Below are positions 30 to 11,101 of a stretch of 64,000 bases of DNA, in pieces. A program made the position numbers and the translations under genes. Below the pieces are notes generated by a model. It was not told the DNA's origin. It ran no database searches and saw nothing but the letters and a program-made list of their open reading frames with translations. The stretch's first letter is position 1; each line of letters begins with the position of its first letter. This DNA comes from Verrucomicrobium sp. BvORR106 (lineage in GTDB: Bacteria > Verrucomicrobiota > Verrucomicrobiia > Verrucomicrobiales > Verrucomicrobiaceae), in contig NZ_BATR01000031.1 in the NCBI RefSeq assembly GCF_000739655.1, positions 62,001-126,000 on the forward strand. Direction: 5' to 3'.

Positions 30-1478
30 TCACTTCCGCGCCACGGTCACGATCGTGATGTCATCCGCCTGGGGCTCACCGCCTTTGAACCGGTTCACGG
101 CATCACAGAGACGATCAACCACGGCTTGGGCTCCATGCGGGGCGGCTTCTGCCAGTGTTTCCTTGATGCGCTCCACCCCGAACAGGAGGCCTTTGTGATC
201 CGTGGCCTCATCGACCCCGTCCGTATAGAGGAGCAGAATGTCTCCGCTCTCCATCGAGATGGAAACATCCCGGGTGATGCGGTCAAACACTTCTCCCTTG
301 TCCACTCCCACGGCGAGGCCGGGTGCTTTGATCTCATCCACATCGCCCGTGGCCTTGCGCCAGACGAGCGGATTGGTATGGCCAGCCCGGGCGAAGCTTA
401 CACTCGCGCCATCCTTTTGCAGGATCAGGTAGCCCACCGTGATGAACATGTCCTCGCGGATGTCCGGGAACAGGTTCCGGTTCACGGCGGAGAGCACCGC
501 CGTGGGGCTGAAAGCTTCGCGCGCGTTGGACCGCAGGACACTGCGGCACATGGCGGTGATGAGTGATGCCGGAATCCCCTTGCCACAGACGTCAGCGATG
601 GCCACGCCCAAGTGCGTCTGGCTCACTGGCACATAGTCAAAGTAGTCCCCACTCACCATCCGGGCGGGAACGTTCCGCGCGGCAATGGCGAAGCCTGGCA
701 TCTCAGGCGCCTTCTCCGGAAGAAGGATGCTTTGAATCTCCCGCGCATTGCTGAGTTCCGCTTCCAGCTGTCGTTTTGCGCCCGCCTCATGGTGGGCCTG
801 CGCATTGCCCAAGGTGAAACCCACCTGCTCAGCCAGCGCGATGAACATCTCCAGTTGGTGCTGGGAGAAAGGCTTGGTGCGATCAGAAGCGACTGCGAGC
901 ACACCCAGCGGACGACCGCCATGTCTCAGCGGTGCCATGAGCGCCGCCACATGCTGCTGAAAGGGGTTGGGCTCCCCGTCAAACTTCTCGTGATGCCGCA
1001 GATCCGGAACATTCTCCGCCTTCTGGGAAAGCACGACATTGCCCAGCGCTCCCTCACCCGGAGCGACACTGTGCAGCCGAAGATAACTGGGCAGCGTTCC
1101 CGCGTTGGTCTTGGCCTGAGTCACGATGCGCTCAGGAAGCGCGATCAGAGGTGGGCACTCCTTCGTGTAATGGCGGGGCACCAGAGAGAGTCCCTTTTCA
1201 TCCAGCAAGTAGAGCGCCGCGCCCTCGGATTCCACCACCTTGACCGCCCCTTCGGCGATCTGGCGATGCAGCGTGGTATCGGGCTGCCCCTGAAGAATGG
1301 AGTCCCCCAAGATGTGCAGGACCTCGAACACCCGACGGCGTCGGGAAGCACGCTCCCGGTCGCCTTGAAGGAACTGCATCCTCAGCCGTCGCTCCCGCTG
1401 CCAGGAACGGAAGAGGGCGTAGCTCCCTGCCGCTCCAGCCAAGAAGAAGATGACAGCGGCGATCCAACCGGAACTCAT
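30..1478 (-). CDS. GAF-domain SpoIIE-type PP2C serine phosphatase, membrane-anchored
   Basis: Probable signalling phosphatase that dephosphorylates a serine on an anti-sigma-factor antagonist (STAS) protein. The 482-residue protein has one N-terminal membrane segment (about residues 5-22), a basic stretch, a GAF-like sensor domain (about 55-225), a short helical linker and a SpoIIE/PP2C domain (about 255-480). Metal-binding and family motifs are visible: SGDYFDY (276-282), ADVCGKG (295-301), AGHTNP (365-370), YTDGVDEA (418-425) and DDITIV (472-477). All key acidic residues are present, so it should be active. It lies 78 bp downstream of a STAS gene on the same strand, which supports a partner-switching pair. 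No RsbW-type kinase is seen nearby. The GAF ligand cannot be told from the sequence. Confidence 0.9.
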   Translation of the reverse strand: MSSGWIAAVIFFLAGAAGSYALFRSWQRERRLRMQFLQGDRERASRRRRVFEVLHILGDSILQGQPDTTLHRQIAEGAVKVVESEGAALYLLDEKGLSLVPRHYTKECPPLIALPERIVTQAKTNAGTLPSYLRLHSVAPGEGALGNVVLSQKAENVPDLRHHEKFDGEPNPFQQHVAALMAPLRHGGRPLGVLAVASDRTKPFSQHQLEMFIALAEQVGFTLGNAQAHHEAGAKRQLEAELSNAREIQSILLPEKAPEMPGFAIAARNVPARMVSGDYFDYVPVSQTHLGVAIADVCGKGIPASLITAMCRSVLRSNAREAFSPTAVLSAVNRNLFPDIREDMFITVGYLILQKDGASVSFARAGHTNPLVWRKATGDVDEIKAPGLAVGVDKGEVFDRITRDVSISMESGDILLLYTDGVDEATDHKGLLFGVERIKETLAEAAPHGAQAVVDRLCDAVNRFKGGEPQADDITIVTVARK

Positions 1479-1556
1479 GCTGGGAGGCAGGCTAGCGCAG
1501 GAACGCCGCCTGGGAAAGTAACTTTAGAAAATGTTCCCTCGGGTACGAAGGGCGGA

Positions 1557-2090
1557 TCAGGCCACCGCCACAGCGCGGGACCGGACTTCCTTTTCAAGGA
1601 ACTCGATCACGTCCTTGAACCGGCTGGCATTGGCTTCATTGGCCTTGGTAAGGGCCTCATGAGCCTCGAGCACGTGCTCGGCCTGTTCCACCTTGTCAGG
1701 TGAGGCATTTTCATTGCACTTGCCCAGCTCGTCACACACTTGCTTCCGCTCCACTTGGTGGCGGGAGCCGTCGTTGTCGACGTCGAGGATGTGATCAAGT
1801 CCGAGGCTGCTAAGCAACTGCCGGTTGCGGGCGTTGGCGTTGAGGATGCACACTTCACCATCTCCGATTTCACGGAGGTTGAGTGCGGCACCGGTAAGGG
1901 TCCCCAGAAAGGTGCTGTCCATGATGGGGCAGCGCTCCAAGTCCACAACGAAATGGCGGGTGCCTTTTTCGATCATGGTCTGGAAGCAACGCTTCACCTG
2001 CACGCTGTTCTGGAATGAGCCCTTTCCATCCACGCGCATCCAAAAGAGGTTGCCAATGTTTCCAACAAGAATGGGGGCGGGCGATGTCAT
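1557..2090 (-). CDS. STAS-domain anti-sigma factor antagonist with helical C-terminal extension
   Basis: Likely substrate of the neighbouring SpoIIE phosphatase. I chose the ATG at 2090. A longer reading from a GTG at 2147 adds a low-complexity leader outside the STAS domain. No good ribosome-binding site helps decide. In the 177-residue form the STAS fold covers about residues 7-105, with the typical phosphorylatable Ser59 in the sequence IMDSTFLG. Residues about 125-177 form a charged, probably helical extension not found in minimal SpoIIAA/RsbV proteins. It may serve for dimerisation or partner binding, which is inference. It is transcribed just before the phosphatase gene. Confidence 0.85.
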   Translation of the reverse strand: MTSPAPILVGNIGNLFWMRVDGKGSFQNSVQVKRCFQTMIEKGTRHFVVDLERCPIMDSTFLGTLTGAALNLREIGDGEVCILNANARNRQLLSSLGLDHILDVDNDGSRHQVERKQVCDELGKCNENASPDKVEQAEHVLEAHEALTKANEANASRFKDVIEFLEKEVRSRAVAVA

Positions 2091-2296
2091 GACGACGGAG
2101 AGGAGTCTGGAAGATAAAAACGACGACCTCCAACTACGAGCGTCCACGGGCTATGACAACATGCTCCACCCGTTTCAGGCGAAGGGAGACATGACATCGG
2201 AGGGTGGACACGGGCACGAGGGGGTTTAGAAGTCCAAAAAGTGTTATCGAATCTAATCTATGTTACGCGTCTGTCACGCAGTCGGGTGATAAACGC

Positions 2297-2326
2297 AAAA
2301 AAGCGCGTGCTCATTCCAGCACGCGC
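2297..2326 (-). terminator. Rho-independent terminator of the lipoprotein gene
   Basis: On the minus strand a perfect 9-bp GC-rich stem (2303-2311 pairing with 2318-2326, six-base loop) is followed at once by six T residues (A run at 2297-2302 on the plus strand). It lies 14 bp after the lipoprotein stop codon. Confidence 0.9.
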
Positions 2327-2340
2327 CATCAGGGGGAGCC

Positions 2341-2838
2341 TTACTCCCAGAGATAGGAATTGTAACTCGTCAGCACTTGGGAACCACGAACGATGCTGGC
2401 CCGCCACGCGGTAACCGGTCCGTTGCTCACATAGTCATCACCGATAAAGGAGAACTTGGTGACGTTGTTACGGCCGATCTCAGCCACATCCTGTTCCACC
2501 TTCTTGATGGTCAGGCCGGAGGCCTTCTGGCGGTACTCAAGACGCACCACCACAGGCTGGCTGCGGTCTTCCACCGTCCAGAAGATGGTGAAGTAGTCAC
2601 CCTGACGGGCGATGCGCTCCGCCTGGGAGATGGCACCGTGAAGGATGGCGTCCTTCTCAAAGTTGATCGAAGGATCCGCCGCCACCACGCGGGCGTTGAC
2701 GTCCTTCAAGTGATAGGGGTTTACCTTGGTAATGGTGGCCCCATTGCCCACCGACTTGGTGCTGCACGAAGCAAGAAGCAAACCGAGGCCTGCCGCAAGA
2801 ATAATGCGGGAGTGGGAGATGAGGCTGGGCAAACTCAT
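2341..2838 (-). CDS. Small exported lipoprotein of unknown function
   Basis: The 165-residue protein begins with a type II signal peptide: hydrophobic core AAGLGLLL and lipobox LASC, with Cys25 as the predicted lipidation site. The mature part is about 140 residues, rich in beta strand, with no motif I recognise. It should be anchored in a membrane facing the periplasm. It stands alone, with its own strong terminator downstream and the divergent nuclease-ligase gene about 210 bp upstream. The upstream gap contains only an AT-rich TTCAAAATTCAAA-type motif at 2895-2911. Confidence 0.75.
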   Translation of the reverse strand: MSLPSLISHSRIILAAGLGLLLASCSTKSVGNGATITKVNPYHLKDVNARVVAADPSINFEKDAILHGAISQAERIARQGDYFTIFWTVEDRSQPVVVRLEYRQKASGLTIKKVEQDVAEIGRNNVTKFSFIGDDYVSNGPVTAWRASIVRGSQVLTSYNSYLWE

Positions 2839-3048
2839 AAACGCGGGACGATAGGTAGCGCCATGGGATATGTCAACGACGTGCGAGGGAAAAGAACTTC
2901 AAAATTCAAACGTCACCAGCGCTCGTGAATCTAAGGGCTCCAACCCTCTGGGACACGGTCGATTGGCAGCGTTGAGGCAGCCTCAACTGTCTTTTTGAAC
3001 ATTATATCTGGCCGACCCACGAAGTTTGCGCGATGAGAGGGCACCAAG

Positions 3049-5835
3049 TTGTCGAACGAACTCGTGTCGCCCTCCTCTCCCAGACCCATTGCCCTGCAAC
3101 ACACTGGTGGCATCTACCTGCCGGAGCTGGACCTCTGGCTGGACCCTCACCGGCCGGTCGGGAGGGCGTTTGTCTCGCATGCGCACAGTGACCACTTCGC
3201 CCGTCATGAGTTCACGCTCTGCTCTCCGGTCACCCATGCCATCATCGACAAACGATACGGCGCGATTGCTGAGGGAGCCAGTCTGGTACCTGGCTATGGA
3301 GAGGCTGTGATCGAACGCGGCTACGAGCTCCGTCTGCTGCCCGCCGGCCATATTCTGGGCTCGGCCATGCTGCATGTCACCCGTCAGGAAGACGGTGCCA
3401 CGCTGCTCTACACCGGAGACTTCAAGCTGCGTCACGGACGGACGGCAGAGCCTGCGGAACTCCGACCTGCCCACACCCTGATCATGGAAACCACCTTCGG
3501 CCTGCCGATGTATGCCTTCCCTCCGCAGGAGCAGGTGCTGGCAGACATCATCCAATGGGCACGGGAGACCCTGGAGGACCAGGGCATTCCCGTGCTGCTG
3601 GGCTACTCGCTCGGCAAGGCCCAAGAAGTCCTCTCCGCCTTCCATGGGGCGAGTCTGCCAGTGATGCTGCATGCATCCATCGTGAAGATGACCCAGGCTT
3701 GTGCCCCCTATTTCCCGGACTTCCCGCGGTATGAAAAGTTCGATCCGGCAACCGCAGCCGGGCATGTGCTCATCATGCCGCCCAGTGCCGCGCGCTCCCA
3801 GGCCATTCGCAAGCTACGGGTCTGCCGTACAGCCATGCTGAGCGGCTGGGCACTCACGCCCGGGGCCAAGTACCGCTATCAGGTGGATGAAGTCTTCCCC
3901 TTGAGTGATCACGCCGACTACCCGGAGCTGATTCAGACGGTGGAGCAAGTGCAGCCCCGTCAGGTGTACACCGTGCATGGGTACACCAGTGAGTTCGCCC
4001 GTGATCTGCGTGAGCGGGGATGGGAGGCCTGGTCCCTCGTGAGCGAAGACCAGCTCGAACTCACGCTTCCTGGTACTGCGACCACGACGGAGGTTGTTTC
4101 TACCAATGAGAATGCTGAAGACGCCACGGAGGCCATCGCGCCCCCTCCAGACTCCTTTGCTGCCTGGGTGCAGACCTGTGAGCGGGTCGCCGCAGATGGC
4201 TCCCGGCTGAAGAAGCGCGCCCATCTGGCGGAGTACCTGCAACAGCAGTCTGACGGAGATCTGTCGAGAGCGGTACGCTGGTTCTCCGCGATGCTGGAAG
4301 ACCCCGTGCTCCAGCTTCCCCCTTTGCAAACAGGGTGGTCGGTCATTCGGCGAACCCTGCTTGAGCTGAGCGGCCTGCGGGAGGCCGAGTACCGGGTGAT
4401 TTCCCGCTCTCAGGCGGACACCGGCCGGACGGCCCGTCTGGTGCTGGACCGGGCGCTGGCCGCGGGCAAGTTGTTTCCCACGTCCCACACGCCCGCCACT
4501 GAGGTCGCCGGCCTCTTCGACCGGCTCCGCAGCGCCCATGGCCCGGTGGAAAAGACAACGGTGCTCAAGGAGGGCCTGGCCAAGCTGCCTCCCCTGGAGG
4601 GCAGCTATGTGGTGCGCCTGCTGACCGGTGAACTCCGGGTGGGCTCCCGGGAAGGACTGGTGGAGGAGGCCATCGCCACCGCCTTTGACGAACAACCAGA
4701 CCAGGTGAGGGAGGCGGCCATGCTCTGCGGAGATCTGGGAAGAGCGGCGGACCTGGCCGCCCGCCATGAGCTGGACTCTGCCCAGCCGGAGCTCTTCATC
4801 CCCGTGAAGGTGATGCTGGCGAGCCCAGAGGAGACCGCTGGTGACATCTGGAACCGGCTCACCGCCCCGGACGAGGCGGATGAACCGAGCCGAGCCACCG
4901 CCACCGCCCCCACCACGGTGTGGCTGGAGGACAAGTTCGACGGCATCCGGGCCCAGCTGCACCGCTCCGCCGGACGTGTGGAGATCTACTCCCGCGACCT
5001 CAAACGGATCACCGACCAGTTCCCGGAGATCGCCACGGCCGCGAGCCAGCTTGGCGATGAGGTGATGCTGGATGGCGAGATCGTGGCGTACGCCGAGGAT
5101 CGCAAGCTGTCCTTCTTCGATCTCCAGAAGCGTCTGGGCCGCCGCGATCAGGGGGACCTGTTTATTTCCTCAAGCATCACCGTGCGTTATGTGGTCTTTG
5201 ACCTCATCTGGCAGAACGGGGCCGGGCTCCTGCATGAACCGCTGGAGGAGAGGAGGGAGAAGCTGGAGAAGCTCGCACTCCCGCCCCTTCTGAAACGCAT
5301 CGCCGTGGCAGAAGCTGCCTCTGAGACGGAGGTGGAGGCGGCCTTTCATGCCGCACGGCGCAACGGCAACGAGGGCCTCATCGCCAAAGACCGGCACAGC
5401 ACCTACTCGCCCGGCAGGCGGGGCAAGTCCTGGCTGAAGCTGAAGAAGGCCTTCTCCACTCTGGACGTGGTGGTGGTGAAGGCGGAGCAGGGCCACGGCA
5501 AACGCAGCCACGTGCTGAGCGACTACACTTTCGCGGTGCGGGATGAGCACAGCGGAGCCCTCAAGGTCATCGGCAAGGCCTATTCCGGCCTCTCGGACGT
5601 GGAGATCGAGGAATTAACCGAGCACTTCACCGAGCACACCCTGAGCCAGCGCGGCAGCGTGCGCACCGTCACGCCGAACATCGTGCTGGAGATCGCCTTT
5701 GACTCCATCCAGGCCAGCCAGCGCCACGACAGCGGCCTGGCCCTGCGCTTCCCCCGCATCAAGGCCATCCGCCGCGACAAGGGGGTGGATGAGATCGACA
5801 CCCTGACCTACGCACGGAAGCTGGCGGGGAAGTAG
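3049..5835 (+). CDS. Fusion of ligase-associated metallo-beta-lactamase exonuclease and ATP-dependent DNA ligase
   Basis: A 928-residue two-enzyme protein. Residues 1 to about 340 are an MBL-fold nuclease of the kind called ligase-associated DNA exonuclease: metal motif HAHSDH (44-49), the GHILGSAM segment and TGDFKLR. After an Ala/Pro/Thr-rich linker (about 342-367) come the DNA-binding domain (about 368-580), the adenylation domain with EDKFDGIR (nucleotidyl Lys629), the RYVVFDLIW and EGLIAK motifs, and a C-terminal OB domain ending near residue 925. In many bacteria these are two adjacent genes, often with an Lhr-like helicase and a PdeM-type phosphoesterase. Neither partner is nearby here. 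The TTG start at 3049 has GAGAGG 8 bases upstream. The reading frame runs unbroken through the linker. Role: probably DNA end processing and sealing in repair. Confidence 0.93.
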   Translation: MSNELVSPSSPRPIALQHTGGIYLPELDLWLDPHRPVGRAFVSHAHSDHFARHEFTLCSPVTHAIIDKRYGAIAEGASLVPGYGEAVIERGYELRLLPAGHILGSAMLHVTRQEDGATLLYTGDFKLRHGRTAEPAELRPAHTLIMETTFGLPMYAFPPQEQVLADIIQWARETLEDQGIPVLLGYSLGKAQEVLSAFHGASLPVMLHASIVKMTQACAPYFPDFPRYEKFDPATAAGHVLIMPPSAARSQAIRKLRVCRTAMLSGWALTPGAKYRYQVDEVFPLSDHADYPELIQTVEQVQPRQVYTVHGYTSEFARDLRERGWEAWSLVSEDQLELTLPGTATTTEVVSTNENAEDATEAIAPPPDSFAAWVQTCERVAADGSRLKKRAHLAEYLQQQSDGDLSRAVRWFSAMLEDPVLQLPPLQTGWSVIRRTLLELSGLREAEYRVISRSQADTGRTARLVLDRALAAGKLFPTSHTPATEVAGLFDRLRSAHGPVEKTTVLKEGLAKLPPLEGSYVVRLLTGELRVGSREGLVEEAIATAFDEQPDQVREAAMLCGDLGRAADLAARHELDSAQPELFIPVKVMLASPEETAGDIWNRLTAPDEADEPSRATATAPTTVWLEDKFDGIRAQLHRSAGRVEIYSRDLKRITDQFPEIATAASQLGDEVMLDGEIVAYAEDRKLSFFDLQKRLGRRDQGDLFISSSITVRYVVFDLIWQNGAGLLHEPLEERREKLEKLALPPLLKRIAVAEAASETEVEAAFHAARRNGNEGLIAKDRHSTYSPGRRGKSWLKLKKAFSTLDVVVVKAEQGHGKRSHVLSDYTFAVRDEHSGALKVIGKAYSGLSDVEIEELTEHFTEHTLSQRGSVRTVTPNIVLEIAFDSIQASQRHDSGLALRFPRIKAIRRDKGVDEIDTLTYARKLAGK

Positions 5836-5924
5836 GGTCGGATGGTGGATGGTGCGCCCTGATGAAATCATCGGGGTTGGGGAAGGAGCCTCCCCGGGGT
5901 TTGTCATTGACAGAGTCTAGATAT

Positions 5925-5950
5925 GCACAAAGGGGCATGCCTCCTTGTGC
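5925..5950 (+). promoter_or_regulatory. Hairpin directly before the sugar dehydrogenase start codon
   Basis: GCACAA(A)GG at 5925-5933 can pair with CCTTGTGC at 5943-5950, with a GC-rich loop. The ATG follows at 5954. It would cover the translation start region and could modulate initiation. The pairing is visible; the function is a guess. Confidence 0.25.
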
Positions 5951-5953
5951 CCC

Positions 5954-7282
5954 ATGATGTTGCGCTCCCTCTTGATTTCAAAAAGCTGCTCCCTGGCGAT
6001 CTCTGCGCTGTCGGTTCTGAGCGCAACTTGGGCTTCCGGGCAGGCACCTGCTCCGGCTCCGGCTCCGAGCGCCTACACCCTGGAGGATGTGCTGCCGAGC
6101 CTGACGTTTGACCTGCCCGTGGCCGTGACGACCGCCCCCGGTGACACCGAACGACTTTATGTCATGGAGAAGTCGGGTCGGGTACAACGCATCGACGGAT
6201 GGCGGGGACCAAACCCCACCAAGAAGACCTTCCTGGACCTGACACTGCCCAAGGATGGCAAGCTGCAAAACAATGCGAGTGAGTGTGGCCTGCTGGGATT
6301 CACGTTCGCCCCTGACTTTGCCAAAAGCGGTCGCTGTTTCGTTTACTATAGCCTGCGCTTCTCCCGGAAGTTGCATCAACGCCTCTCGAGATTCCAGGTC
6401 CTGCCGGGCGATCCGACCAAGGCGGACCCCGCCTCCGAGCAACCGCTGATTACCCAGGAAGATGCCGCCAACAATCACAACGGTGGAGATCTGCACTTCG
6501 GTCAAGACGGCTACCTCTATGTGAGCGTGGGAGATGGCGGCGGCGGCAACGACCAGTTCGACCAGGCCCGTTTCATTGATCGCGGTTTCCATGCAGGTCT
6601 CCTGCGCCTGGATGTGGATCAGCGCCGCGGAAACCCGCCGCCCAACCCGCACCCAGGAATCGCCCGAGCAGCGAATGGTCGGGCCTTCTACAGCGTCCCC
6701 GCCGACAATCCTTTTGTGGGCGCGACCTCTTACCATGGCAGCGCGGTGGATCCCGCGACGGTGCGGACGGAGTTCTGGGCCACGGGGCTGCGCAATCCCT
6801 GGCGGTTCTCGTTTGATGCACCGACGGGCCGCCTCTTTGTGGGGGATGTGGGCCAGAACGCCTATGAGGAAGTCAATGTGGTGACCCGCGGAGGTGACTA
6901 TGGCTGGAGCTTGCGGGAGGCGCAGCACCCCTTCCCCCTTGGGCCTAGCGGGGAAACCCTCCCGCCGGACTTTCATCCCATCGATCCCGTCTTCGAGTAC
7001 CCGCACAACGTGGGGCTGTCCGTCACAGGCGGGGTGGTGAGCCATGCAGCGGGCCTGCCAGAACTGGAAGGGGCCTACATTTTTGCCGACTTTGCGACCG
7101 GCATGGTCGTCGCGCTGCGGGAAGCCAGCCCGCTCTGGAAGGACGAGATGTTGATGCGCGAACCCGGCATCTCCGCCATCGGGGTCGATCCGCAAAACGG
7201 TGACCTTCTCTTCGCTAATCTGGCCCAGGGCAAGATCAAGCGCCTGACCCGGGCTCCTGCGGTGCCAGTCTCAGCGCAATGA
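5954..7282 (+). CDS. Exported PQQ-dependent sugar dehydrogenase (glucose/sorbosone dehydrogenase family)
   Basis: Six-bladed beta-propeller oxidoreductase of the soluble aldose sugar dehydrogenase (Asd/YliI, GSDH) family, which oxidises aldoses in the periplasm using PQQ. The 442-residue protein has a signal peptide (about residues 1-29, ending SATWASG) and a short Ala-Pro spacer. The active-site motif HNGGD (175-179) precedes FGQDGYLYVSVGDGG (182-196); RNPWRFSFD and GDVGQNAYEEV (297-307) are also family hallmarks. There are tandem ATGs at 5954 and 5957, and a TTG at 5945 in frame is less likely. It is a single gene with no PQQ biosynthesis genes in view. The actual substrate cannot be assigned. 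Confidence 0.88.
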   Translation: MMLRSLLISKSCSLAISALSVLSATWASGQAPAPAPAPSAYTLEDVLPSLTFDLPVAVTTAPGDTERLYVMEKSGRVQRIDGWRGPNPTKKTFLDLTLPKDGKLQNNASECGLLGFTFAPDFAKSGRCFVYYSLRFSRKLHQRLSRFQVLPGDPTKADPASEQPLITQEDAANNHNGGDLHFGQDGYLYVSVGDGGGGNDQFDQARFIDRGFHAGLLRLDVDQRRGNPPPNPHPGIARAANGRAFYSVPADNPFVGATSYHGSAVDPATVRTEFWATGLRNPWRFSFDAPTGRLFVGDVGQNAYEEVNVVTRGGDYGWSLREAQHPFPLGPSGETLPPDFHPIDPVFEYPHNVGLSVTGGVVSHAAGLPELEGAYIFADFATGMVVALREASPLWKDEMLMREPGISAIGVDPQNGDLLFANLAQGKIKRLTRAPAVPVSAQ

Positions 7283-7390
7283 CCGTCCAGGGCGACGGAT
7301 GGCCTCTAGGTGTGAAATGTGCGAATTGTGGCATTTAAGGAGGCCGTTCCAGGCGTAGTGGATAGCACGCTCATCGCAAGGTGCCTCGAC

Positions 7391-8668
7391 ATGTCCCACT
7401 CTTCATCTCCCGCCCGCCCCGTTGACTCCTCTGCCGGGGATGCCGCCTCCGTATCGCCAGCCCGTCTGGGAACCCTGGCGGCCTGGGGCAATGTGGTCCT
7501 CGCCGCCCTGCTGATGCTGGCCACGCTGCCGGGGCGCACCCAGGGGCTCGGACTGATCACGGAGCCGCTGCTCAAGGATCTGGCGCTGGACCGGGTGGCG
7601 TACGCGAACATCAACCTCTGGGCCACGCTGCTGGGCTCCGCCTTCTGCCTTCCAGCGGGCTGGCTCATTGACCGATGCGGTCTGCGCTGGACCACCGCGG
7701 CCATTCTTCTGCTCCTGGCGGGTGTGGTGTGGCAGATGAGCGTGCTGGCCGGTGGTATCACGGTCTTGTTCATCCTCGTCCTGCTGACCCGGGCCCTTGG
7801 TCAGAGCGCGTTGTCCGTCGCCAGCATCAGCACCGTGGGCAAGAGCTTTGGGCTCAAAGCGGAGTGGGCCATGGCGGTGTACTCGGTGCTGCTGAGCATC
7901 TTCTTCATCGCCGCCTTCGTCTGGGTGGGAGGCGTGGTGGAGTCCCGCGGCTGGCGGGTGGCGTGGGGTCAGTTGATTCCCGGACTGCTGGTGGCGGCAG
8001 GCGCGGTGGTGTTCCTGCTGCGCGAACCCGGCGCAGGTGGTGGCAAGACGGAGGCGGCCTCCCCTGCCGAAGGATTCACGCTGGGACAAGCGTCGCGCAC
8101 CCAGACCTTCTGGGTCTTCGCCGGAGCCACGGCAATGTTCGGGTTGGTGTCGTCCGGCTTCGGTCTCTTCAATGAGTCGATCCTGGCCGAGCGGGGGTTC
8201 GATCAAAAAACCTTCCACGACACGCTCGCCATCACGACCCTGTTTGCCCTGCTGGGGCAGATGCTCTGCGGATGGCTCTCTCTGCGGAGAAGGCTGGCCC
8301 GGCTGCTGGCGGTGGCGCTGCTTCTCTATGCAGGCGGTCTGGGTGCCCTGCCCCTCATGACCACGCTGAACCAGCTCTGGGCCTTCGCCGCCATCTTTGG
8401 CGTGACGGCCGGTTTCATCACCGTCATCTTCTTTGCCATCTGGGGTCGTGCTTTCGGACGGGCCCATCTCGGTCGCATTCAGGGGGCCGCACAGATGCTC
8501 ACCGTCTTTGCCTCCGCCATCGGCCCCCTTGTCTTTGCCCGGAGTCACGCCGCTGTTGGCTCCTATGGCCCGCTCCTCTTTTCTCTCGCGCCGCTGCTCC
8601 TGCTCGTCGCCGGGATCGCCTGGTTCACCCGGCTGCCAGGCGAAGCGCCAACGTCTTCTCCAGCATGA
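7391..8668 (+). CDS. Major facilitator superfamily transporter
   Basis: The 425-residue protein has about 12 hydrophobic segments in two halves, separated near residue 210 by a charged loop (REPGAGGGKTEAAS). The first half contains GWLIDRCGLRW and the second LCGWLSLRRRLARLL, which match the loop 2-3 and 8-9 signatures of MFS carriers. The ATG at 7391 gives a short polar N-terminus; a longer reading from 7319 adds nothing conserved. It lies 108 bp after the sugar dehydrogenase gene and converges on the FAD oxidoreductase gene. The substrate is unknown. Confidence 0.85.
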   Translation: MSHSSSPARPVDSSAGDAASVSPARLGTLAAWGNVVLAALLMLATLPGRTQGLGLITEPLLKDLALDRVAYANINLWATLLGSAFCLPAGWLIDRCGLRWTTAAILLLLAGVVWQMSVLAGGITVLFILVLLTRALGQSALSVASISTVGKSFGLKAEWAMAVYSVLLSIFFIAAFVWVGGVVESRGWRVAWGQLIPGLLVAAGAVVFLLREPGAGGGKTEAASPAEGFTLGQASRTQTFWVFAGATAMFGLVSSGFGLFNESILAERGFDQKTFHDTLAITTLFALLGQMLCGWLSLRRRLARLLAVALLLYAGGLGALPLMTTLNQLWAFAAIFGVTAGFITVIFFAIWGRAFGRAHLGRIQGAAQMLTVFASAIGPLVFARSHAAVGSYGPLLFSLAPLLLLVAGIAWFTRLPGEAPTSSPA

Positions 8669-8731
8669 ACTGGTTCCAACGGAAGCGTTGAACTCTGGCG
8701 CGCCGCATGTGTCCAGCAGAGGTCGTGAGGG

Positions 8732-10186
8732 CTAAGCCGCCTGACCAGCGCGGATCTTCTCCAGCAGCGACGAGGCTTCCTTCCAGTCCACGTTGTGGGG
8801 GAGAACCTTTGTCCGGGCGGCGAGGGCGGCCACCACGCCTGCAGCCTCGCCCATGGCCACGGAGTTGCCCGTGACCCGGTAGCTGGCGTGGGCGATGAAA
8901 TCACCACTGATGCAGCGACCCGCCATCATGAGACCGTCCACATCCTTGGCAATGAGCGCCCGCAAGGGGATGTCATACGGCGTGGTTTTGACCCCGGCAC
9001 TGTGATAGGCGGCTTTTTCATTGGCCTCCTTGCTCACCGCGTGGATGTCCACATTGAAGGACGCCCGCATGACGCCGTCCTCCTGTTTCCGGCCCTCGAT
9101 GAGATCTTCCTTGGTCAGGACATAGCGCCCGGTGATGCGCCGACCATCGCGCACCCCGATCTGCTCGGCGGTGGCGACGAGTTGCAACCCATCCCAGGGG
9201 CCGCCCAGCTTGCGCAACCCACGCACCACCCGGTGAATCTCCGCCCGTGCCCGGAAGGTGGCCTCTGTCACAGCCGCCGCGTCATACGCCAGGATGCCGT
9301 ACTCGTGATTGATCATCAGATTGAAGAGCCGGTCCCTCACCTGAAAGAGCGAGGGCGTGCCGTAAGTGGCTTTCAAGCCAGCCTGGGCGAGGGCCTCACG
9401 GAAATTCGCCACCGGCTCCTTCCTCCAGGAGGCCTGCCCGCCGAAGTGGGAGGCAAAGGGGCGCATGGCCTGCGGATCCACGGCCATGACCATGGCCATC
9501 ATCGTCAGCGGCTGGCAGGGGCACTGCTTGCTCTCGCCCACTTCCCAGGAGCATCCGGCGAGGGCCCCCAGATCGCCATCCCCAGTGGTGTCGATGAAGA
9601 CCCGGGCTCGCCACGCCTGGCGGCCGGCCTTGGACTCCGTGATCACGGTGGTGACCCGGTTGTCCCCGTCCTTCTGCGCAGCCACCACGCGGGTGAAGAG
9701 CTGCACCTTGACGCCGGCGGTGAGGCACAGTTCCTCCAGCAGGAGTTTCATCTCCTCCGGATCATAGAAATAACTTGAGGCGTTGTTGGGCAGGTGGGAG
9801 CCGCGCTCAGCCAGGCGGGTCACGAGTTCGCGATTGAACCCCGGTTTGTCCGCATCCAGCACATAGCTGAGCAGCCCTGCGGTCCAGACTCCCCCCAGAC
9901 ACCCGTGCACCTCCAACAGCCGCACCCGGGCTCCAGCACGGGCGGCGGTAAGGGCGGCAGTGACCCCGGCAGGCCCGCCCCCACAGACAATCACATCCAC
10001 GTCATCCACCAGCGGAACGGTCCGCCCCGTTTCCTGCACCAGGCCTGCAGCAGGCTGAGGCGCAGGGGATTCTGCCGCGCCTACCACGCCGGTGACCGCA
10101 GCCGCGACGGTGCCCAAGGCGCCGCGCAGCAGCGAGCGGCGGTTCACGTCTCCGGCTGGATGCATGGAAGAGGAAGAATCGGTCAT
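8732..10186 (-). CDS. Tat-exported FAD-dependent oxidoreductase
   Basis: A 484-residue flavoprotein with a twin-arginine signal (Arg16-Arg17 in VNRRSLLRG, then an Ala/Val-rich core), so it should be folded in the cytoplasm and exported with its cofactor. The Rossmann FAD motif GGGPAG is at 69-74, followed by an acidic residue in LLEVHG. FIDTTGDGDLGALAG and the C-terminal GRCISGDFIAHASYRVTGN are typical of the FAD-dependent family often found with polysaccharide or glycan use in Planctomycetes and Verrucomicrobia. The start at 10186 is preferred because it puts the Tat motif near the N-terminus. A longer frame to 10285 overlaps the divergent NYN gene. The substrate is unknown. Confidence 0.88.
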   Translation of the reverse strand: MTDSSSSMHPAGDVNRRSLLRGALGTVAAAVTGVVGAAESPAPQPAAGLVQETGRTVPLVDDVDVIVCGGGPAGVTAALTAARAGARVRLLEVHGCLGGVWTAGLLSYVLDADKPGFNRELVTRLAERGSHLPNNASSYFYDPEEMKLLLEELCLTAGVKVQLFTRVVAAQKDGDNRVTTVITESKAGRQAWRARVFIDTTGDGDLGALAGCSWEVGESKQCPCQPLTMMAMVMAVDPQAMRPFASHFGGQASWRKEPVANFREALAQAGLKATYGTPSLFQVRDRLFNLMINHEYGILAYDAAAVTEATFRARAEIHRVVRGLRKLGGPWDGLQLVATAEQIGVRDGRRITGRYVLTKEDLIEGRKQEDGVMRASFNVDIHAVSKEANEKAAYHSAGVKTTPYDIPLRALIAKDVDGLMMAGRCISGDFIAHASYRVTGNSVAMGEAAGVVAALAARTKVLPHNVDWKEASSLLEKIRAGQAA

Positions 10187-10276
10187 GCGGACCCTACGCG
10201 CCTGCCTGCGGACTTCTCGCAAGGACCTCCCCCAGTCCGATTCCCCCTGCATCCCGTCTAATCCTGTGTTAACCTG

Positions 10277-11101
10277 ATGAAACACATCCTCATGAGCCCT
10301 TCAAACAACAACGCCACGATGGCGGTTTACCTCGATCTCGAGAACATCGTCCTCGGCGCCCAGGAGGCGCGTTACCCCAAGGTGGACATCCAGAAAATCA
10401 TGGAGCGTCTCCTGCTGAAGGGCCACATCGTGACCAAAAAAGCCTACTGCGACTGGGAGCGGTACAAGGATTTCAAACGGCCCCTGCATGAGGCCGCCTA
10501 CGAGCTCATCGAGATCCCACACGTGCGCCAGTCCGGCAAAAACTCCGCCGACATCCGCATGGTGGTGGACGCGCTCGACCTCTGCTACACCAAGGGGCAT
10601 GTGGACACCTTCGTGATCATCAGCGGTGACTCCGACTTCTCCCCGCTGGTGAGCAAGCTGCGGGAAAATGCCAAAACCGTGATCGGCATGGGGGTGAAGA
10701 ACTCCACCTCGAACCTCTTCATCACGAACTGCGACGAGTTCATCTACTATGATGACCTGGTGCGCAAAGAGCAGAGTCGTGTCTCCCGCAGCACGAAAGA
10801 CAAGGACGCGAAGGATCCCGCCAAAGAGAAGGCCCCGGTGGTCAAGAAGCTGGATCCCGCCGATGCGATCCGCCGGGTGGCTGAGACCCTGGAAGCCCTG
10901 ACTGAGGACCGGGACGCCGACGATCCGGTCTGGGGATCGATGATCAAACAGGCTTTGAAACGCCGCGATCCGGGCTTCAACGAGCGGGCGTTCGGGTTCA
11001 AATCATTCAATGCCTTGCTCGAAGACGGACAAAAGCGCGGGGTGCTTACGCTGGAGGCGCATGAGAAATCAGGGGGTTACCTGGTGAAAGCAAAGGGTTG
11101 A
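10277..11101 (+). CDS. NYN (PIN-like) nuclease-fold protein with C-terminal OST-HTH/LOTUS domain
   Basis: A 274-residue protein related to LabA/YaiI-type NYN proteins. The NYN domain (about 15-165) has the acidic residues expected of a metal-dependent RNase: Asp20 (YLDLEN), Asp92 in KNSADIRM, Asp98, and Asp118/Asp120 in GDSDFSPL. A charged Lys/Asp-rich linker (about 166-190) leads to a C-terminal OST-HTH/LOTUS-like domain (about 192-272), usually an RNA or G-quadruplex binding module. A role in RNA processing or decay is inferred from the family. Three ATGs are possible (10277, 10292, 10319). Its promoter region is shared with the divergent FAD gene. The next gene, a symporter, follows 43 bp later. 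Confidence 0.85.
   Translation: MKHILMSPSNNNATMAVYLDLENIVLGAQEARYPKVDIQKIMERLLLKGHIVTKKAYCDWERYKDFKRPLHEAAYELIEIPHVRQSGKNSADIRMVVDALDLCYTKGHVDTFVIISGDSDFSPLVSKLRENAKTVIGMGVKNSTSNLFITNCDEFIYYDDLVRKEQSRVSRSTKDKDAKDPAKEKAPVVKKLDPADAIRRVAETLEALTEDRDADDPVWGSMIKQALKRRDPGFNERAFGFKSFNALLEDGQKRGVLTLEAHEKSGGYLVKAKG

Follow-up and report, generated by a model that had tools for sequence, protein, structure and literature searches.

The Lhr-Core helicase, the phosphoesterase MPE, the ATP-dependent DNA ligase LigB and a metallo-beta-lactamase (MBL) exonuclease constitute a widespread bacterial repair gene set. The target lesion of the ligase operon is unknown (PMC10140301). Fusions of the nuclease to LigB are already known: one occurs in Opitutus terrae (OTER_RS15935; Ejaz and Shuman 2018, as relayed in PMC10140301), and 13 were recovered from Antarctic Dry Valley metagenomes, including DV-1-1-Nuc-Lig, whose ligase half (DV-1-1-Lig) has ATP-dependent nick-sealing activity (PMC10140301). 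Here, a related gene was analyzed at positions 3049-5835 of a 64,000-nucleotide stretch of Verrucomicrobium sp. BvORR106 (contig NZ_BATR01000031.1, positions 62,001 to 126,000), referred to below as the window. A first-pass annotation, made from the letters of this DNA, had described the gene as a natural fusion of an MBL exonuclease and an ATP-dependent DNA ligase.

The gene is closed upstream by an in-frame TGA at 3034-3036 (+), and its parts are as follows:

3049..5835 (+): nuclease-ligase fusion gene, a single open frame of 928 residues with a TTG start and its stop codon at 5833-5835
3035..3041 (+): Shine-Dalgarno-like GAGAGGG, 7 nt from the TTG start, as read from the sequence
3088..4068 (+): MBL/beta-CASP nuclease domain, residues 14-340 (TIGR04122 at 19-330, Pfam RMMBL at 283-327, fold superposition)
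3178..3195 (+): HAHSDH metal-binding motif (H44, H46, D48, H49), invariant in 177/177 nuclease domains
3910..3912 (+): H288, beta-CASP motif B, on CPSF-73 H396 in a profile alignment to 2i7t; invariant in 177/177
3976..3978 (+): H310, beta-CASP motif C, on CPSF-73 H418 in the same alignment; invariant in 177/177
4069..4152 (+): interdomain linker, residues 341-368, predicted to be disordered (predicted local distance difference test score, pLDDT, below 50 at 338-361)
4153..5832 (+): LigB-type ATP-dependent DNA ligase, residues 369-928, with DNA-binding, adenylyltransferase and OB-fold domains (NCBIfam and Pfam)
4933..4935 (+): K629, the adenylated lysine of motif I (EDKFDGIRAQ), conserved without exception in alignment A3 (52 fusions)

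Profile searches confirmed that exonuclease and ligase share one 928-residue chain. In NCBIfam, the TIGR04122 exonuclease profile covers residues 19-330 (4.6e-72) and ATP-dependent ligase profiles cover about residues 371-926 (3.4e-95), with LigD profile matches that are weaker and restricted to the ligase core. Pfam places RMMBL (283-327), DNA_ligase_A_N (369-543), A_M (620-799) and A_C (820-911) in that order. TIGR04122 is the best profile for the nuclease region, yet the match misses its equivalog cut-off (242.6 vs 325 bits). The cut-off of TIGR04120, the cisplatin damage response DNA ligase, is likewise missed (295.4 vs 400 bits), and that of the superfamily profile TIGR00574 (dnl1 ATP-dependent DNA ligase) is passed (243.3 vs 217.8 bits). 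Because the scores fall below both equivalog cut-offs and above the superfamily cut-off, the profile evidence places the window protein in a diverged branch of both families and not among their NCBIfam equivalogs.

The catalytic residues of both halves are conserved. None of the 177 nuclease domains compared deviates at H101, D124 or E147, and the remaining nucleotidyltransferase motifs of the ligase are invariant across the fusions aligned. An AlphaFold2 model built from a 52-row alignment reached a mean pLDDT of 88.4 and a predicted template modeling score (pTM) of 0.55, with disorder at residues 338-361. Its nuclease portion (residues 14-332) superposes on the archaeal KH-CPSF 2xr1 (Z 31.0, 312 residues, 2.7 A) and on CPSF-73 2i7v (Z 28.6, 318 residues, 3.6 A). 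The ligase portion superposes on archaeal DNA ligases, such as 3rr5 (Z 38.2, 540 residues aligned), with a root-mean-square deviation of 12.0 that is high because ligase domains move. At this pTM, the model gives no indication of a fixed contact between nuclease and ligase, and predicts two well-defined rigid modules without a fixed mutual position. Among 125 relatives the linker is 18-69 residues long (median 25) and is rich in A (16%), P (13%), S (12%), E (9%) and T (8%), so that its earlier description as Ala/Pro/Thr-rich was roughly right.

The domain order in one frame, the metal ligands and the adenylated lysine are those of the O. terrae and Dry Valley fusions, in which an RMMBL nuclease likewise precedes DNA_ligase_A_N/M/C in one chain. 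The DV-1-1 fusion has 959 residues compared with 928 in the window protein, and the Dry Valley fusions, like that of the window, lie outside an Lhr/MPE operon. The O. terrae fusion, compared here by its description, instead lies within an Lhr/MPE cluster, whereas the window genome has lhr and mpe elsewhere. The same fusion is present in an Opitutus species (L177) and another member of the Opitutaceae (L178), at 43-49% identity to the window protein. The canonical TIGR04122 exonuclease and TIGR04120 ligase share families, order and catalytic motifs with it, including the motif-C histidine, but are separate genes about 30-38% identical to the fusion; in several canonical relatives (L240, L241, L242, L244) the two genes overlap by 4 nt. 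Separate genes with a stop between the domains, which the first-pass annotation had named as a finding that would speak against fusion, do exist, but only in this distant branch, and the fusion stands. Plasmid records gave canonical matches only, in joined pieces, with separate genes where annotation is given. LigD, the ligase of non-homologous end joining, resembles the window protein as a bacterial ATP-dependent ligase fused to a nuclease, and combines nuclease, polymerase and ligase modules in a single polypeptide. Its nuclease, however, has an unrelated fold, and LigD works with Ku, whereas the window protein joins an MBL/beta-CASP nuclease to a LigB ligase.

The fusion is an old and common feature of Verrucomicrobia, of which the window gene is a further, ordinary member. 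The same chain occurs at 93-94% identity in two same-genus genomes, G001 and the closed G003, and a fusion was found in 31 of 57 near relatives at identities down to about 50%. Among these near relatives, G020 has its fusion split over contigs, and G024, G038 and G039 show two matches in one frame. Of the 80 best loci from a scan of a genome collection, nearly all are full-length fusions and, by record title, nearly all come from Verrucomicrobiota. The taxa with a fusion include Verrucomicrobium, Brevifollis, Prosthecobacter, Chthoniobacter flavus, Udaeobacter, Akkermansiaceae, Pedosphaera and Opitutus. Overall, the search for the fusion in other Verrucomicrobia, which the first-pass annotation had suggested as a check, yielded about 125 relatives with one uninterrupted frame, including the closed chromosomes G003 and G004.

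Both halves are under purifying selection. Relative to two same-genus genomes, the ratio of nonsynonymous to synonymous substitution rates is 0.037-0.064 in the nuclease and the ligase, and 0.40-0.60 in the linker. Distances among fusions correlate between nuclease and ligase (r = 0.87, with 0/500 permutations as high), and both halves therefore share one history. Among the relatives examined, in which the nuclease occurs either with an in-frame ligase or without one, none was seen to have returned to two separate, intact genes. The only apparent frame breaks (L121, L146) come from single draft metagenome-assembled genomes and were not interpreted. One fusion (L165:1014-3743), whose contig is filed under Betaproteobacteria, falls among Verrucomicrobiota sequences in the nuclease tree, and the contig is probably misbinned.

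The partners of the canonical set were located in the host genome (G000). A Lhr-Core helicase of 886 residues, with DEAD, Helicase_C, WH_Lhr and DEAD_assoc domains, is encoded on contig C166 (L093:3096-5756), and an MPE/PdeM-type phosphoesterase of the Metallophos family on contig C41 (L094:1584-2453); both score below the NCBIfam equivalog cut-offs. The whole Lhr-Core/MPE/Lig/Exo set is thus present, distributed over three different contigs and not organized as an operon. No helicase or PdeM gene was found among the flanking genes checked (30-10285), so the earlier statement that both are absent holds for the surroundings of the fusion and fails for the genome. The helper genes are scattered in this genome, not missing. 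Lhr-Core and MPE are both encoded in G001 and G003 as well, and in the latter these two and the fusion are spread over the closed chromosome, at about 58 kb, 5.83 Mb and 7.70 Mb. A distance of about 4 kb separates Lhr from the fusion in the closed G004. In other lineages the fusion, Lhr and MPE adjoin one another, namely in G073, G137, G148, G192, G322 and G065 and at loci L162, L174 and L177 (Opitutus sp.).

Across genomes, Lhr-Core and the ligase half are retained together. Among 98 genomes with the fusion-type nuclease, Lhr-Core was detected in 45/53 with an intact ligase half vs 3/45 without one (Fisher's test 5e-16, ignoring kinship). About six of nine phylogenetically independent pairs pointed in the same direction and none in the opposite one (median sign-test p 0.03). 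MPE was present in all 48 genomes with Lhr-Core. Lhr-Core was scored as present at E <= 1e-100, with G065 (1.1e-98, in pieces) also counted; the matches in G334 and G384 (the latter outside the table) run through much longer frames of ~1,480 residues and were not counted. As a separate observation, two loci, L084 (G030) and L080 (G045), have canonical, high-scoring Lhr-Core and MPE genes side by side in genomes with the fusion-type nuclease, where no ligase half was found at E <= 1e-10.

Computation established that the protein is a single chain with its catalytic residues intact, that both halves are under purifying selection, and that the partners are present and co-retained. These results are consistent with a bifunctional repair enzyme of the Lhr-Core/MPE/LigB/Exo pathway whose two activities are tethered, a reading to which we assign a probability of roughly 0.6. 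Lhr-Core, which translocates 3'->5' on single-stranded DNA (PMC7437997), would open a duplex that is damaged or hybrid. Nucleotides would be stripped off the exposed strand by MPE and the MBL half, leaving ligatable ends. MBL-fold nucleases leave 3'-OH and 5'-phosphate ends, so the products of the nuclease would be directly usable by the ligase. The ligase half, kept close by a flexible tether of ~28 residues, would then seal the nick with ATP; the tether would raise local concentration without fixing the geometry. For the cooperation of the halves on one lesion, as for the polarity and substrate of the nuclease, this scheme is what we infer. The fusion probably has a single origin, in an ancestor of class Verrucomicrobiia, and may have come about when the stop separating two genes, which overlap by 4 nt in the canonical operon, was lost. 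It would show which two of the four components of the set act side by side.

Several observations weigh against this reading. The RNA-type motif C, as read from the sequence, does not fit a pure DNA exonuclease. The nuclease half of the DV-1-1 fusion, the sole known attempt at a nuclease half, was insoluble (PMC10140301). Eight genomes carry the fusion without a detected Lhr-Core (G006, G025, G068, G095, the closed G140, G174, G302 and G305), and the fusion can therefore be kept without this helicase. In 42 rows of the alignment, the nuclease stands without a ligase and retains every MBL metal ligand, and must therefore be useful alone. None of the four components reaches its NCBIfam equivalog cut-off, which means that function is carried over from diverged relatives. 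The direct cooperation that the first-pass annotation drew from the fusion is accordingly plausible, but weaker than claimed, as the ligase half has been discarded repeatedly while the nuclease was kept, and the model has no fixed contact.

The motif-C histidine supports an alternative in which the RNA-type MBL half removes RNA (a primer, an R-loop or a misincorporated ribonucleotide) from the Lhr-opened strand and the ligase half closes the DNA nick. In beta-CASP enzymes, a histidine at motif C marks the RNA-cutting members and a valine the DNA-cutting members (PMC4770246). The window protein lacks the valine of the SNM1/Pso2/Artemis-type DNA nucleases and has His310 there, on CPSF-73 H418. 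The top fold matches of the nuclease are the RNA-cutting KH-CPSF, CPSF-73 and TTHA0252, and Lhr has been called an RNA:DNA helicase family. This residue is not decisive, however, since CPSF-73 and archaeal RNase J, both RNA-type beta-CASP enzymes with a motif-C histidine, cut single-stranded DNA too (PMC4770246). A DNA substrate is suggested by the NCBIfam name and by the ligase partner, and a sequence-only ranking by single-protein phmmer places SNM1A, a DNA exonuclease, first. As an overall explanation, RNA:DNA-hybrid or ribonucleotide processing seems rather unlikely to us, although RNA or hybrids may still be among the nuclease substrates because of the motif-C histidine. The 3'-end trimming once proposed for the nuclease found no support: SNM1A, the best-studied DNA beta-CASP exonuclease, runs 5'->3' (PMC7607226), and the motif-C histidine is an RNA-type signature.

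If the two enzymes instead acted independently, the tether would serve co-expression and have no mechanistic role. The long, variable, disordered linker, the lack of a predicted interface, the frequent loss of the ligase half from beside a retained nuclease, and a canonical branch that manages with separate genes would all suit such an arrangement. Against it stands the lack of any reversion to two intact genes among the relatives examined, the breaks in L146 and L121 being confined to draft assemblies, and we consider it improbable. The first-pass annotation had suggested a pathway reduced by the helicase and PdeM. This idea would agree with the lack of repair genes in the flanking region checked, and it does fit a few other genomes (among them the closed G140, G095, G174 and G302) that keep the fusion and in which neither Lhr-Core nor MPE was found. 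For the host organism it is contradicted by the Lhr-Core and MPE genes on other contigs and by the same genes, far apart, in its closed relative G003, which makes it very unlikely. A sequencing or assembly error joining two genes was rejected as practically negligible: no support for one was found, and independent genomes, closed chromosomes among them, carry the same frame in ~125 relatives, with purifying selection on both sides.

The fate of the ligase half was followed in a quick tree of 177 nuclease domains, with support from the Shimodaira-Hasegawa-like approximate likelihood-ratio test only. The 42 nuclease-only proteins are dispersed within the fusion clade and require 14 label changes, at least nine of which are forced by well-supported branches, although this root-free count alone does not distinguish gain from loss. 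Decay intermediates were also found. In the fusions L246:426-2702 and L247:1574-3844 (genomes G334 and G269), the motif-I lysine is gone (EDRYDG, EELHDG), DGE is replaced by DGT, and the OB domain is absent, with the nuclease motifs intact; from their sequences, these are natural pseudo-ligases with a dead ligase half. In L248:732-2510 (G262), only part of the ligase DNA-binding domain follows the nuclease, and the genome still has Lhr-Core and MPE. The nuclease-only frame of G016 stops a short way past the domain, with a 4-nt overlap into an unrelated gene that follows. Several observations support loss as the usual direction: the fused ligases are set apart from seven canonical ligases in the ligase tree, nuclease and ligase distances correlate, neighboring genes are shared with two nuclease-only loci (L088 and L089, described below), and decayed ligases occur; on the same grounds, repeated independent fusions are disfavored. 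The ligase half has thus probably been lost repeatedly within class Verrucomicrobiia, leaving an intact nuclease.

Repeated joint loss of ligase, Lhr and MPE in genomes that keep the nuclease divides the set into a three-member module (ligase, helicase, phosphoesterase) and an independently useful nuclease, and raises the question of what the nuclease does in species with nothing else of the set. One tentative answer, which we hold to be somewhat short of an even chance, is that the nuclease works on its own as a beta-CASP enzyme directed at RNA or hybrids, with a selected role of its own, and that the ligase is an add-on of the Lhr-Core/MPE module that was dropped with it many times independently across Verrucomicrobiia. 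If so, Verrucomicrobiia would be a natural experiment and "ligase-associated exonuclease" a misnomer. No papers turned up in the literature search on how the fusion is distributed across Verrucomicrobiia, on its retention alongside Lhr-Core and MPE, or on the repeated loss and decay of its ligase half, most subscription journals being beyond the reach of the search. This is not proof that the spread, co-retention and loss pattern are new, and the fusion architecture itself is already known.

Three divergent neighbors precede the fusion in the window and are not part of the enzyme:

2341..2838 (-): 165-residue protein with a lipoprotein-like signal and no Pfam match
1557..2147 (-): STAS-domain protein
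30..1478 (-): GAF and SpoIIE-type phosphatase protein

Of 59 named loci, 18-19 have this three-gene divergent block upstream of the fusion; they span orders of Verrucomicrobiota and include some Chthoniobacterales. In G007 and G016 (loci L088 and L089), the same block flanks a gene for the nuclease alone. Elsewhere in the host genome, at least three further ATP-dependent-ligase-like matches were identified, with 34-39% identity to the catalytic core (C98:207806, C129:98049 and C110:40367). By these matches, the cell probably has several ATP-dependent ligases beside the fusion.

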